From a virus, in IMG/VR virus record IMGVR_UViG_3300031227_000552, positions 1 to 20,335 of that record: 20,335 nt of DNA; one strand, 5' to 3'. Shown here in pieces: positions 14,347 to 19,717 of this stretch. Positions within the stretch are counted from its first letter, which is position 1, and each line of letters opens with the position of its first letter. The notes below the pieces were generated by a model that did not search any database, was not told the DNA's origin, and saw only the letters and a program-made list of their open reading frames with translations. A program made the position numbers and the translations under genes.

Positions 14347-14535
14347 TCAGGCCTCCTTTAGTTTGTGCATATCTTCTAACTCAAAATCCCAAGGAATAAA
14401 TATCTTTAAACCGTCGTGTATTGCAAAGAATCTTTTACATCTTTCACAATATAATTTTCTAGCTCCAGGAATAGTATCATAACCCTTAACCACCTTTAAT
14501 TTATGAAAAAAGATTTTACACCATAGGTTCGCCAT
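14347..14535 (-). CDS. Small Cys knuckle protein (DUF1660-like)
   Basis: 62 residues with MANLWCKIFFHKL at the start and CERC near residues 30-33, a C...H...CxxC arrangement as in small phage zinc-binding proteins of the DUF1660 kind. Its ATG overlaps the terminase stop (TAATG) and its SD AAAGGAG is within the last terminase codons, so it is translationally coupled to terL. Confidence 0.55.
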   Translation of the reverse strand: MANLWCKIFFHKLKVVKGYDTIPGARKLYCERCKRFFAIHDGLKIFIPWDFELEDMHKLKEA

Positions 14536-17500
14536 TAATAGCTCCTTTTCTTTCCTGATTCAAACTCCTGTTTAACTATGAACCGAGGATTTGACATACA
14601 GAGATACCTAACCAGATCGCAGTTAGCCACTAGAATATCATTGGCATAATATCTGTGACGACCCTCGACCGTTATATTATAAACTGTTTCTTTTGAGTTT
14701 GGTAGCACTTTGACTACGGCCACCGCATTTTCTGGAACAGGTTTTTGTTGCAGAGTATTTGTTGATAGAAAACGTGGAATTACAGACAACACAGATTCGC
14801 TGTTCATTGTCAACGCCGGATTGCCTACGGTATCTTGATTTGCAATTATTGGAACAAAATTTAAAATCCCAACACACTTTAGTTTGAAATTCATTCCCAC
14901 ACATTTCACATATTTTAATACGAGGTGTACGATTCTTCCAAATCTTTTTAAATTGCCTAGATGCAACTTCTCTCCCATCCTTGCTTTTATGCCATGCTGC
15001 CATTTTCTTACTATGTCCTGTATGCTTTTGGATTCGTTCACTAAGCTCTCTTCGACGTTCTTTTGAGTATGGATGTTTCGCCCAATGTTCCTTAACCGTA
15101 AGAAGTTCAAGATTAGAAATGTCATTATTAAATTTATCACCGTCGATATGATGCAGGTGCATCCCTTTCGGAATTTTCCCATTAACTTTTTCCCAAACTT
15201 CTCTGTGAAAAAATCTTGATCCAAGTTGCAAATATCCACTTCTTCCAACTTTCCAATCGTATGTCCTTTTTCTTGCCATACACATATTGTATCACCATAT
15301 CGCAATAGGTCAAGAGAAACTTTTAATCCATTTTGTAAATAAATTTGATGGTTAGGCGTACCGCATAATTCTTTTCCATTAGAAAACGTAACCGCTACTG
15401 TTGGTCTATTAAACCCAGTTGCCATTGATACTAATACTTTCCTCAATCCAATATCTGTTTCCACCAAGTCACCAACCTTAATATCTTCGATTGGTATTTG
15501 GCCACATGAAGTTCTTACCATTGTTCCAGCCACAAAGCAGAAATCCTTGAACGCTTCCTTCGGCTTAACCTTGTCCTTAACATCACCATCAGCAGAGGTT
15601 ATATCCTTACGGCTATATCTTGACATGTGCCTTATGTGATTCGTACAATTATCACAGATAAAAAACTTTGGCTGAACAATCAACTCGGCATCCTTTTCCT
15701 CCCAATGTAAGAACTGTCTGACCTGTAAATGCCCTGCCTCAACTGAATCAATGCCATCTTTATATATCAATCCTCTCTTTTTAAGCTCTTCAACCGGCGT
15801 TGTCTTGGCCTGGCCGCCCTGTCTTTGAGCCAACTGCATTGTCTTATTCCCGAAATTAGGGTCAATTATGCGCTTAATGAACTTATTCTTGACTCCTTGC
15901 ATAAGAATTGACTCTTTCATTTTGATATACTTGGCATATTCATCATAAGTCTTGTCATCATAAAGCATATCATTGAAGTTTCGTTCCGGGTATTCCTCAA
16001 TAGCACACACAGAACCGGTCGGATGAACTGCATACCAACCAATCGCCCAAGGTTTCCTATCATGCGGATCAAGTACATTGTATATTTGACACCCAGATAG
16101 CTCTACATCCTCTCTTCCGATAACATGGACATCCTTATTGAACGATGGATATATCTTGCCTTGTAGGTTGATTGGGATGCCATAGAAGCGGCTTTTAATC
16201 TCCTGTCTGGTCATCAGCTTGGCTTCTTCCATCATTCGCTCATAATTGATGTATGGATTGTTCTCAGTCCAAAGGAAATAGAACTTAACACCGTTCTTTT
16301 CAGCGATCACAGGCAGCACTTCATCAACTAAAGCAGCATAACGGCTCTTGATAACCGTATGCCCTTCAAATATCTCTTCAATTAACTCCGTAACACCGCG
16401 CAAAGAAGTCATTGAAAGCAACAACTCGCCATCCCTGTCAAGCAATCTCATCTTAATCTCTTGCCATATATCCAGGTCAGGCTCTTCATCACACCACGCA
16501 AGGTCAATAGCATCACCCTGAAACGCCTCACGCTTTTGGTCATAAGACTTAAAGATCGCTAAGGATCTGTTTTTAAGTAATAGCTTACGGTTCGTATAGC
16601 CATTGATCTCATCATAACTGCCGTACTTGATTTTATGTAAAGGCATGAGCCTTGCCATCTTAGCCTGTTGAATGTTCACAGACTCAGCAAAGGTTAATGC
16701 ACAACACCAGAACCTTGCGGCCGGCATTGAGATCATCTTCTTATCTACATAACAACTGACGGCTTCAGTCTTTCCGGAATTATGATGAATCGCGCCACAC
16801 GCATAATAATTATGATATTTGGGAACAGTAAAATCCCACTTGACATCTTCCCTGATATACTCTATACTGATTATAGCCGAATAAGCGGTATTACGAAAGG
16901 AGTTGTCACGTGGCATGGCACAACAAGAACGAATATCCTGTAAATCAGATTCGGGAATGGATTGAGGTTGAAGGAAAAACTCAAGCATGGATTGGTAAGC
17001 AACTTGGATTTGACGCAAAGCTAATTTATAAAGTTTGTAAGAAGCATGGAATAAAATGCCAACGAACTGGGCCTCGATCCGGCTCTGGCCATCCTGATTG
17101 GAAGGGTGGCAGATTGATCGACGGCGATGGCTATGTTTTGGTGTATTGTCCTGAACATCCTTATGCAAGAAAGCCTCGCGGGTGCTATGTGCTTGAGCAT
17201 CGCTTGGTGATGGAGTATCATTTAAAAAGATTTCTTTCTCGCTCAGAGGTGGTGCATCACAAGAATGGAAACAAACAGGACAACCAGATCGAAAATCTAC
17301 GTTTGTTTTCGAATAATTCTGAACATCTGAAACATGAGTTGTCTGGTAAGATTCCGGCTTGGACTTCGGAAGGAAGATTAAAAATCCTTCATGCAATAAA
17401 GAAACTGGCTGATAACCGTAGAGGCCTAACACTTGATGAGTACCAGAACAAACGAAACTCTCGCCAGAACATAGCGTAACTTTAAACATGCTCCCAGCAT

Positions 17501-17786
17501 CTTTCGTGAAGGGCTTGCTTGCTTCTGAAATAACAAGCCTCTTGCCATCCCATGCAAGTACATGGAAGTTTTCTTTTATCTTCCCAACGGCAATAGATTG
17601 CTTTAGGACAGGATCATATATCTCTGTTTCTGCCCCCAAACATCTGTTGCCCCCGAATATCACCTTGATTTTGGCTGGATCATTAGCCCATAGCTGCTGC
17701 TGAGGTAGGTATTGGTGAGCCATCAGAGGATTCTTTTTGGCTCTTGCGGCGTACTCTTGCGCGTACTTAATATCAGGTATATCCAT
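14535..17786 (-). CDS. terL: Terminase large subunit carrying two inteins
   Basis: 1083 residues: about 489 of terminase plus two inteins (49-336 and 750-1055). The mature enzyme is the DNA-packaging motor: an ATPase that docks on the portal and a nuclease that cuts concatemers. Walker A becomes GGNRSGKT after the first intein is removed (residues 45-48 joined to 337-340). Walker B is DLAWCDEE (D433, E434), the coupling motif is SMTS (458-461), and nuclease aspartates are likely D573 (LDPHD), D642 (IDPNFG) and D1057 (CDLVRY), the last just after the second intein. SD AAGGA lies four bases before ATG. Neither the ATPase loop nor the final nuclease motif is complete without splicing. Confidence 0.9.
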   Translation of the reverse strand: MDIPDIKYAQEYAARAKKNPLMAHQYLPQQQLWANDPAKIKVIFGGNRCLGAETEIYDPVLKQSIAVGKIKENFHVLAWDGKRLVISEASKPFTKDAGSMFKVTLCSGESFVCSGTHQVLGLYGYQPVSLLHEGFLIFLPKSKPESYQTTHVSDVQNYSKTNVDFRSGCPVCFHSCDAPPLSEKEIFLNDTPSPSDAQAHSTREAFLHKDVQDNTPKHSHRRRSICHPSNQDGQSRIEAQFVGILFHASYKLYKLALRQIQVAYQSMLEFFLQPQSIPESDLQDIRSCCAMPRDNSFRNTAYSAIISIEYIREDVKWDFTVPKYHNYYACGAIHHNSGKTEAVSCYVDKKMISMPAARFWCCALTFAESVNIQQAKMARLMPLHKIKYGSYDEINGYTNRKLLLKNRSLAIFKSYDQKREAFQGDAIDLAWCDEEPDLDIWQEIKMRLLDRDGELLLSMTSLRGVTELIEEIFEGHTVIKSRYAALVDEVLPVIAEKNGVKFYFLWTENNPYINYERMMEEAKLMTRQEIKSRFYGIPINLQGKIYPSFNKDVHVIGREDVELSGCQIYNVLDPHDRKPWAIGWYAVHPTGSVCAIEEYPERNFNDMLYDDKTYDEYAKYIKMKESILMQGVKNKFIKRIIDPNFGNKTMQLAQRQGGQAKTTPVEELKKRGLIYKDGIDSVEAGHLQVRQFLHWEEKDAELIVQPKFFICDNCTNHIRHMSRYSRKDITSADGDVKDKVKPKEAFKDFCFVAGTMVRTSCGQIPIEDIKVGDLVETDIGLRKVLVSMATGFNRPTVAVTFSNGKELCGTPNHQIYLQNGLKVSLDLLRYGDTICVWQEKGHTIGKLEEVDICNLDQDFFTEKFGKKLMGKFRKGCTCIISTVINLIMTFLILNFLRLRNIGRNIHTQKNVEESLVNESKSIQDIVRKWQHGIKARMGEKLHLGNLKRFGRIVHLVLKYVKCVGMNFKLKCVGILNFVPIIANQDTVGNPALTMNSESVLSVIPRFLSTNTLQQKPVPENAVAVVKVLPNSKETVYNITVEGRHRYYANDILVANCDLVRYLCMSNPRFIVKQEFESGKKRSY
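14622..15539 (-). other. Intein 2 in terL (between F749 and C1056)
   Basis: Residues 750-1055, 306 aa, inserted one residue before nuclease Asp1057. Block A is CFVAGTMVRTSCG with Cys1; block B is GTPNHQIYL; the C-terminal block is ETVYNITVEGRHRYYAND followed by ILVAN, and the +1 residue is Cys. These are standard class 1 splicing blocks, except for Ala in place of the penultimate His. The linker between blocks B and F has no endonuclease in the terminase frame; instead the -1 frame encodes an HNH protein. The C-terminal block starts just where that gene ends. Confidence 0.85.
14677..15285 (-). CDS. HNH endonuclease in the -1 frame of intein 2
   Basis: 202 residues, same strand as terL but in the -1 frame, contained within the intein. 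Residues 17-62 match HNH_3 homing nucleases (GYLQLGSRFFHREVWEKV, then PKGMHLHHIDGDKFNNDISN), with H45, H46, N54 and N58 as active-site candidates. The C-terminal half has two CX2CX14CX3C zinc ribbons (C126, C129, C144, C148; C165, C168, C183, C187), probably for DNA recognition. A TGA lies three codons before the first ATG, so entry is by internal initiation (ATG 15285 or 15279; SD weak) or by a -1 shift near an A5 run. TTGACC-N16-TACAAT at 15313-15286 is a possible promoter that would give a near-leaderless message. It would cut terL alleles lacking the intein. Confidence 0.8.
   Translation of the reverse strand: MCMARKRTYDWKVGRSGYLQLGSRFFHREVWEKVNGKIPKGMHLHHIDGDKFNNDISNLELLTVKEHWAKHPYSKERRRELSERIQKHTGHSKKMAAWHKSKDGREVASRQFKKIWKNRTPRIKICEMCGNEFQTKVCWDFKFCSNNCKSRYRRQSGVDNEQRICVVCNSTFSINKYSATKTCSRKCGGRSQSATKLKRNSL
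16840..16868 (+). promoter_or_regulatory. Promoter for the antisense HNH gene
   Basis: TTGACA (16840-16845), 17-base spacer, TATACT (16863-16868; one mismatch to TATAAT). It points toward the plus-strand HNH gene, whose GTG is about 35 bases past the predicted start. It sits inside codons for the residues just before and in block F of intein 1. Confidence 0.65.
16910..17479 (+). CDS. Antisense HNH homing endonuclease inside intein 1
   Basis: 189 residues, the only convincing plus-strand gene in the window. It starts at GTG 16910 with AAAGGAG (16897-16903) seven bases upstream. N-terminal residues about 10-50 look like a helix-turn-helix (WIGKQLGFDAKLIYKVCKKH); residues about 70-140 match HNH nucleases of intron/intein type (YVLEHRLVMEYHL, EVVHHKNGNKQDN, IENLRLFSNN), with H116, H117, N119, N125 and N129. 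It is nested wholly in intein 1 but opposite to it, and its last 17 or so codons overlap block B. It should nick or cut terL without the intein and so spread it; specificity is unknown. Confidence 0.85.
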   Translation: MAWHNKNEYPVNQIREWIEVEGKTQAWIGKQLGFDAKLIYKVCKKHGIKCQRTGPRSGSGHPDWKGGRLIDGDGYVLVYCPEHPYARKPRGCYVLEHRLVMEYHLKRFLSRSEVVHHKNGNKQDNQIENLRLFSNNSEHLKHELSGKIPAWTSEGRLKILHAIKKLADNRRGLTLDEYQNKRNSRQNIA

Positions 17787-18913: not shown

Positions 18914-19096
18914 CTAAATCTTAATTAGCGGTAGTTTTTTAACTTCTGAATAATCTGCTAGATCCTTTGGACATTCGTGCCACTTGTTACGATCGGTGTT
19001 CCACTTCTTCCTTCGCCTTGCAAGAGTAGCCGCAGACTTCCGATGATGTTCGGCTTTGCGTTTCCATTTTTCATCTAGCTTGGCCTGGGTCAGCAT
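18914..19096 (-). CDS. Small basic helical protein
   Basis: 60 residues, very basic and helical (KRKAEHHRKSAATLARRRKK), with a single Cys (HECPKDLADYSE) and Trp residues. Starts seven bases inside the end of the second GroES-like gene; SD weak (AAGGGATG, ten bases away). Might bind nucleic acid; no family recognised. Confidence 0.5.
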   Translation of the reverse strand: MLTQAKLDEKWKRKAEHHRKSAATLARRRKKWNTDRNKWHECPKDLADYSEVKKLPLIKI

Positions 19097-19410
19097 AAAA
19101 CCACATCCCTTATTACAACTAAGACCTCAACGAACGGTATTGAATAAAAACCACTACCATCCATCCTGAAATCAGGTTTGCGACTCGGCCTTTGAATATA
19201 AACTATATCCCCTTCTTTACATGGCGGCGGAACTTTCTTCTGTTTTGGATATGCCGGTGGTGTATAAATCCCTCCTACTGAAACGGCTTCGCACTTAATT
19301 GACCTATCTGAACTGTCATCACCTATATATAATCCTGATGCGGTCGTTCGTTCTTCCCTTAAAACCCTTACAACCATTTTGCCATCGATTGATTTGATTT
19401 TACGTTTCAT
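19090..19410 (-). CDS. Second, divergent GroES-like protein
   Basis: 106 residues with the GroES layout but extra loops: N-terminal strand KMVVRVLREERTTASGLYI (mobile-loop region with a hydrophobic GLYI), then EGDIVYIQRPSRKPDF and a C-terminal FVEVLVVIRDVV in place of LVLRxxDILAxV. The 20-residue insert with PPAYPKQKKVPPPC is unusual. SD GGAG lies before ATG. It directly follows the canonical GroES. It may form mixed rings or bind GroEL with another cargo; this is inference. Confidence 0.6.
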   Translation of the reverse strand: MKRKIKSIDGKMVVRVLREERTTASGLYIGDDSSDRSIKCEAVSVGGIYTPPAYPKQKKVPPPCKEGDIVYIQRPSRKPDFRMDGSGFYSIPFVEVLVVIRDVVLC

Positions 19411-19456: not shown

Positions 19457-19717
19457 TTATCCCACCTTTGCCAAAATATAATCTGGCCTTAATACGATTA
19501 ACTTTTCACCGTCAACTTCAACGGTCTTGCCTTCATGCCTTTCAAATAAAATCCGATCGCCCTCTTTTAAAGGAGCTTTGCTTTCCTTTCCTACATACGC
19601 CACAATCCCATAGAACTCTCCGTAATACGATTGAGCTTCTTCCGGGATAAATATATTCCCGGTCTTTTCTTCATGTTCCATCTTAACTAAGATATTATCG
19701 TATGGTGTTTCAAGCAT
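19457..19717 (-). CDS. groES: GroES (10-kDa co-chaperonin)
   Basis: 86 residues. N-terminal DNILVKMEHEEKTGNIFIPE contains the GroEL-binding mobile loop (hydrophobic tripeptide IFI), then GIVAYVGKES, LKEGDRILFERHEGK and the typical end EKLIVLRPDYILAKVG. Phage GroES (T4 gp31, for example) replaces the host lid so that GroEL can fold the phage capsid protein. Length is slightly shorter than host GroES (about 97). No GroEL is encoded here. SD AGGGG is seven bases before ATG. Confidence 0.85.
   Translation of the reverse strand: MLETPYDNILVKMEHEEKTGNIFIPEEAQSYYGEFYGIVAYVGKESKAPLKEGDRILFERHEGKTVEVDGEKLIVLRPDYILAKVG

Follow-up and report, generated by a model that had tools for sequence, protein, structure and literature searches.

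How can an intein be mobile when it has no endonuclease in its own reading frame? The question is raised by the gene for the terminase large subunit (TerL) of a virus, IMG/VR record IMGVR_UViG_3300031227_000552, a complete viral record of 20,335 bases that was analysed in full (the window) and in which all clear genes but one lie on the minus strand. An earlier interpretation drawn from these letters without database searches (the sequence-only reading) held that one intein of TerL, intein 1, is accompanied by an independently expressed HNH endonuclease gene on the opposite strand, and comparison with viral relatives supports this. We consider, with a probability of roughly 80%, that the element is a mobile intein in two parts, a mini-intein and, on the opposite strand, a homing-endonuclease gene that is independent of it (Table 1).

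Intein 1 splits the Walker A loop of TerL between GGNR and SGKT and has splicing blocks at both ends, as first read: Cys1, His69 in block B, WDFTVP..HNY in block F and HHN/S in block G (slash, splice junction), with serine at position +1. Cys1, His69, the penultimate His287 and Asn288 are invariant across 21 relatives of intein 1. The folded halves of the splicing (Hint) domain are predicted by AlphaFold2 to be mostly beta, and the intein 1 profile matches the solved DnaB, RecA and gp41-1 inteins in a comparison with PDB sequences. The Pfam family Intein_splicing (PF14890) matches 20 of the 21 family members at E values of up to 0.01; in the TerL protein, intein_Cterm exceeds its cut-off and intein_Nterm reaches 23.3 against a cut-off of 24.5. 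Empty sites occur in the relatives L214 and L215, which contain neither intein of the window TerL (GGNRSGKS), and in Escherichia phage KW1E_UTAR, related to Pectobacterium phages (GFGTGKS). Given the conserved catalytic residues and the predicted Hint fold, intein 1 looks splicing-competent. Its linker frame gave no endonuclease profile match and is disordered in the model, in line with the original claim that no endonuclease lies in frame.

It is very unlikely that the insert simply stays in TerL and that the host frame merely tolerates an out-of-frame HNH gene. The ShiLan domain of a phage methylase is such a case (PMC11855218), and its HNH is a distant relative of the antisense HNH family; in intein 1, the two Hint halves are conserved together with every catalytic residue and fold confidently in the model, and retention of 288 residues within the Walker A loop should be lethal, the ATPase being essential. 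Two other kinds of element were rejected: a group I intron, as no Rfam family reached its gathering score in the window and the insert is open in the host frame, and a split intein or fractured gene, as TerL is one continuous open reading frame (ORF) of 1083 codons, not two.

The plus strand of the linker encodes the 189-residue protein with a GTG start that had been called an HNH enzyme, and the HNH_3 profile matches this ORF (16910–17476) at 37.7 bits (cut-off, 24.8). The protein has a helix-turn-helix-like N-terminal part, an HNH_3 core and a helical tail; H116/H117, N125, N129 and H139 are invariant among 21 divergent antisense HNH proteins, and I-HmuI is the top fold match (probability 1.00, E = 0.012). 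By profile and predicted structure, it is an I-HmuI-like HNH homing endonuclease that presumably cleaves DNA. Its codons lie opposite intein 1 residues 56–245, and the HNH tail thus crosses block B, an overlap that had been recognized from the start.

The gene appears to be equipped for separate expression. The near-consensus promoter stands where it was first placed, and the Shine–Dalgarno (SD) motif AAAGGAG is present one base from its original coordinates (16896–16902, not 16897–16903). Across relatives, promoter scores exceed those of synonymous recodings of the overlapping intein codons (Wilcoxon P = 3e-7); this control was used in place of an earlier uncorrected test (P = 9e-19) that was biased by conserved intein codons. 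Among 63 HNH representatives (<75% identity), SD motifs occur in 29 against 13.8 expected under a codon-preserving control, a count that is somewhat inflated as starts were partly picked by their SD. The start lies 98–158 nucleotides from the C-terminal end of the intein in the 63 representatives (starts were sought only at 95–160 nucleotides) and is ATG in 57. Because the window contains no other plus-strand gene upstream of the HNH gene, the latter needs its own promoter; from such a promoter, host RNA polymerase could transcribe HNH irrespective of late terL expression.

The openness of the sense frame, considered improbable by chance in the sequence-only reading, proved to be so. Where 6.2 stops are expected, the host frame opposite the window HNH gene has none, an outcome that 2,000 synonymous HNH recodings never reproduced; the two other antisense phases contain 6 and 9 stops. 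Across the 63 HNH genes (13,501 codons), there is one host-frame stop compared with 429 expected from synonymous HNH recoding. This single stop falls at the end of a short HNH fragment (L200) and is perhaps a sequencing error or a sign of decay. Five free-standing HNH relatives have 6–17 stops in the equivalent frame (near expectation in four, modestly low in phiH); an open host frame is therefore not inherent to the HNH family. Separately, both HNH genes of the window (the second is described below) have their wobble positions aligned with host second positions and occupy a frame with fewer expected stops than the other frames tested on that strand.

Selection differs between the two strands. 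In 21 independent close pairs, the ratio of nonsynonymous to synonymous substitution rates (dN/dS) is 0.05–0.36 for HNH and 0.93–9, mostly above 1, for the host frame over the same DNA. Variation at host codon positions 1, 2 and 3 is 0.07, 0.06 and 0.24 in the intein C-block; 0.09, 0.23 and 0.05 over the HNH core, with the peak at HNH position 3; 0.15, 0.16 and 0.16 where the HNH tail lies over the intein N-block, with no position standing out; and 0.11, 0.07 and 0.44 past the HNH stop. Therefore, over the linker it is the HNH protein that is selected, and the opposite host frame is mainly kept stop-free, with double constraint only where the HNH tail overlaps block B. The proposal that both strands are under selection thus holds for this overlap and for HNH as a protein; for the linker it reduces to an open frame. 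Natural examples of double-strand coding are seldom this clean: because HNH wobble positions sit on host second positions, the constraint on each strand can be read separately.

These patterns bear on two other explanations. Long antisense ORFs do arise by chance opposite coding sequence, and a fortuitous or decayed shadow frame is scarcely credible for this one: the HNH_3 match is over its cut-off, purifying selection acts on the protein, the catalytic residues are kept in 21 divergent proteins and the antisense phase is fixed across 164 loci. We rejected a shadow ORF or pseudogene on the basis of the match, the selection and the phase. It is also highly improbable that selection keeps the arrangement for regulation of terL by the antisense transcript, with the endonuclease secondary. 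The promoter faces terL and the transcript would complement terL mRNA, and an effect on that mRNA, also raised at the outset, is possible; selection nonetheless acts on the HNH amino acids, and mini-inteins and LAGLIDADG inteins at the same site manage without an HNH gene.

The arrangement recurs widely. From 90 HNH relatives found in IMG/VR we kept the best 80, and in all 80 the HNH gene is antisense to an intein-bearing host ORF in a single phase—HNH codon position 1 faces host position 1, and HNH position 3 coincides with host position 2—with no host-frame stops in the matched intein stretch. The antisense frame is thus conserved among homologues with an HNH dN/dS well below 1; this comparison had been called for in the sequence-only reading, and its outcome supports that reading. 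As this sample was selected through HNH, we made a separate scan with the HHN/SGKT junction alone, which recovered an antisense HNH in 81 of the 114 loci examined, in the same phase every time. With near-identical junctions collapsed, the 54 classifiable clusters comprised 45 with antisense HNH, 5 mini-inteins and 4 with in-frame LAGLIDADG (the latter two classes assigned by reading the sequences); 4 contigs ended inside the intein. No in-frame HNH was found at a GGNR/SGKT-type site in the 54 clusters with two purpose-built HNH profiles. As to the combination of an in-frame endonuclease with a decayed antisense frame, the in-frame LAGLIDADG inteins of L213, L146, L157 and L166 showed no decayed antisense HNH. 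The hosts of the antisense-HNH intein are mostly TerL, but a clamp loader (L080) and an SNF2-type helicase (L164) also carry it in their P-loops. In total, no fewer than 63 distinct phage sequences, some of them from sequenced isolates, have the two-strand arrangement; by these counts, the antisense-HNH intein is common at phage P-loop sites and not a one-off. Direct search with the intein 1 protein returned no viral relatives, because the linker evolves fast, whereas the HNH query and the HHN/SGKT DNA pattern succeeded. Two scans of genome contigs with short peptide patterns likewise returned no relatives; these patterns are insensitive and do not imply absence from prophages.

Natural alleles separate the components. 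The TerL genes that contain the mini-intein of L112 and the full intein of L162 are closely similar, and the two inteins are set apart by approximately 170 linker residues in which HNH lies; L192 and L117 form a second such pair. The TerL of L213, 83% identical to that of the window, lacks a second intein, and at the position of intein 1 its Walker A loop is interrupted by an in-frame LAGLIDADG intein. This LAGLIDADG intein (L213:2804–5329) apparently begins with glutamate (GGNR/ELAYGT) rather than cysteine or serine. The coexistence of mini and full inteins would also suit an HNH that is a hitch-hiker, homing itself into mini-inteins by cutting the linker without mobilizing the intein into empty terL, and free-standing HNH relatives make capture by an intein plausible. 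We regard this as unlikely, given that the single phase and the narrow range of start positions in all 63 representatives point to long co-residence rather than repeated insertion. In addition, HNH divergence tracks the TerL extein (partial rho = 0.40) more than the intein blocks (0.28), as expected for a terL target, although this is a weak argument; Mantel tests could not tell co-divergence driven by the intein from that driven by the host.

The arrangement is present in the isolates Pectobacterium phage Sabo (L084), Pseudoalteromonas phage PHS3 (L086), Ymer, Amona and Setonix, and Abuela, Koroua, Taid and Pappous have a full-length HNH match inside an annotated gene without a name (at the level of the match, not of the frame). 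It explains mis-annotation of phage terL and HNH genes: in PHS3, HNH is called and terL is truncated (the true ORF, L086:1541–3667, has 708 codons), whereas the annotations of Sabo, Ymer and Amona list TerL as a ‘hypothetical protein’ and miss HNH. Between Sabo and Setonix, dN/dS is 0.14 for HNH, 4.6 for the host frame over the same stretch and 0.02 for the extein. The synonymous divergence (dS) of HNH (0.105 versus 0.77 for the extein) hints at recent transfer, on which we do not rely because overlapping constraint also lowers divergence. With sequenced isolates that carry the element and Escherichia coli phages that have an empty site, homing is directly testable.

We propose the following course of events for a mini-intein with a separate antisense endonuclease gene. 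The TerL precursor would be translated through intein 1, and the strand opposite HNH would supply a disordered linker of some 156 residues; the two Hint halves would, judging by their conserved catalytic residues and predicted fold, then cut the intein out and rejoin the Walker A loop. HNH would be transcribed from its own sigma-70 promoter inside the codons of the intein C-terminal block, as sequence statistics suggest, probably by the host polymerase and earlier than late terL expression. In mixed infections, the enzyme may nick or cut intein-less terL at or near the Walker A codons, and repair would copy intein and HNH together into the cut gene. Selection would then maintain both the HNH protein sequence and a stop-free opposite host frame, as a single stop in that frame would abolish a packaging motor that the virus cannot do without. 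Antisense placement would uncouple the endonuclease from a late essential host gene, at the cost that HNH avoids codons giving stops on the opposite strand.

The overlapping genes, their fixed geometry, the differing selection, the expression signals and the alternative alleles belong to the sequences themselves. Several points weigh against the proposal: splicing, antisense expression and cleavage are all steps that we infer; PF14890 on intein 1 alone scores 30.6 bits, under its gathering cut-off of 35.8; a recognizable SD is confined to 29 of the 63 relatives and a near-consensus promoter to about a quarter; and HNH distances agree with those of TerL exteins no less closely than with those of intein blocks, which leaves recent jumping of the whole unit weakly supported.

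The same TerL contains a second intein with an HNH gene (HNH2), here on the same strand in the +2 frame. Its site and frame are kept in six loci (the window, L003, Rhodobacteraceae phage LS06-2018-MD07, Acinetobacter phage Highwayman, MT838676 and Tetrasphaera phage TJE1), none of which has a host-frame stop, compared with 1–12 in six free-standing homologues; tested locus by locus, the open frame is significant in only three. Most of the free-standing homologues directly adjoin terL, a pattern consistent with HNH2 having been a terL-associated endonuclease that a mini-intein captured. An unannotated HNH2-like stretch also lies in the interval from terL to the portal gene of Brevundimonas phage Poludnitsa (L097:3001–3372). 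Elsewhere in the window, two GroES-like co-chaperonin ORFs lie near each other (19090–19410 and 19457–19717), and approximately 17 copies of a GCCATA-like hexamer close the contig end (20236–20335).

Table 1. Features of the terL region in window coordinates (aa, amino acids; pLDDT, predicted local distance difference test score; slash, splice junction).
Feature	Position	Strand	Basis
TerL precursor ORF, 1083 codons, two inteins	14535..17786	-	phrog_2 terminase large subunit, E 3.7e-17
Intein 1, 288 aa, TerL residues 49-336, Walker A loop, GGNR/C...HHN/SGKT	16779..17642	-	Splicing blocks, model, empty sites
N-terminal half of Hint domain, blocks A and B, residues 1-94	17361..17642	-	AlphaFold2 pLDDT ~95; PDB intein matches
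Intein 1 linker, residues 95-250, predicted disordered	16893..17360	-	AlphaFold2 pLDDT <50; HNH gene on opposite strand
C-terminal half of Hint domain, blocks F and G, residues 251-288	16779..16892	-	pLDDT ~95; TIGR01443 intein_Cterm
Antisense HNH endonuclease gene, 189 aa plus stop (17477-17479), GTG start	16910..17479	+	HNH_3 profile, fold match
Sigma-70-type promoter, TTGACA-N17-TATACT, 11/12 matches	16840..16868	+	Above all 200 synonymous recodings of intein codons
SD motif AAAGGAG, 7 nucleotides ahead of GTG start	16896..16902	+	Sequence; SD enrichment in relatives
Possible weak terminator 3' of HNH gene	17550..17574	+	One found, 1.1 expected by chance
Intein 2, 306 aa, near TerL C-terminus, KDF/C...VAN/CDLVRY	14622..15539	-	Empty site KDFCDLARY in L214/L215
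HNH2 gene, 202 aa, inside intein 2, +2 frame	14677..15285	-	HNH_3 62.3 bits; phrog_15471 E 7e-40

How, then, does this element compare with known systems? It shares with canonical full-length inteins, whose Hint domain is joined in frame to a LAGLIDADG or HNH endonuclease, the class-1-type splicing blocks, the insertion in a conserved ATPase P-loop and an endonuclease at the position of the linker; unlike theirs, its endonuclease is a separate opposite-strand gene with its own promoter, not a fusion in frame. In the fractured genes reportedly described by Dassa et al. in 2009, a free-standing endonuclease gene lies between the halves of a split intein. There, too, the endonuclease is encoded apart from the intein at the linker position, but the host gene is broken into two ORFs, whereas TerL here is continuous and overlaps the endonuclease gene. 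The free-standing HNH genes beside terL (phrog_15471; PAE1, CL2 and EauM-23) belong to the family of HNH2, yet they stand as ordinary genes of their own, and stops interrupt their alternative frame.

Nuclear group I introns offer known examples of antisense homing endonuclease genes (I-DsqI, Didymium Dir.S956-2; PMC9548176), and the sequence-only reading had mentioned such genes in some group I introns. These, too, are self-splicing elements with a separately expressed endonuclease gene on the opposite strand, but they act at the RNA level in eukaryotic rDNA, and the intron strand need not stay open as the intein sense strand must. The ShiLan domain and the Pacc40 insert are same-strand out-of-frame HNH genes in phage methylases without a splicing domain (Arsenault et al. 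2025, PMC11855218). ShiLan resembles the present case in an HNH outside the frame of its host, an open host frame, closest similarity of the HNH to I-HmuI and a patchy distribution; it differs in that its HNH is on the same strand with no splicing domain, whereas here HNH is antisense and inside a splicing intein. Intein 2 with HNH2 is same-strand, as in ShiLan, yet within an intein. The ‘nucleotide kinase’ ORF of Gordonia phage GAL1 (L227:1284–2171) also has an apparent ShiLan-like same-strand out-of-frame HNH insert. Inteins in the ATPase domain of mycobacteriophage TerL were already known (PMC5050341), and the ShiLan paper cites Gosselin et al. 2025 (actinobacteriophage inteins, ‘non-canonical architecture’) and Gorbalenya 1998 with respect to overlapping frames (PMC11855218). 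We found no report of an antisense endonuclease in an intein in full-text literature searches, which did not extend to Gosselin et al. 2025 and Gorbalenya 1998. On balance, we lean towards regarding antisense-endonuclease inteins as a widespread, undescribed class that dominates phage terminase P-loop sites and also occupies certain helicases and clamp loaders. In this class, a promoter-driven HNH gene would overlap the host gene by more than 150 codons, and the timing of intein and endonuclease could differ. The present case shows that the endonuclease of an intein can be left out of the spliced protein, with implications for how the two kinds of element join and separate.

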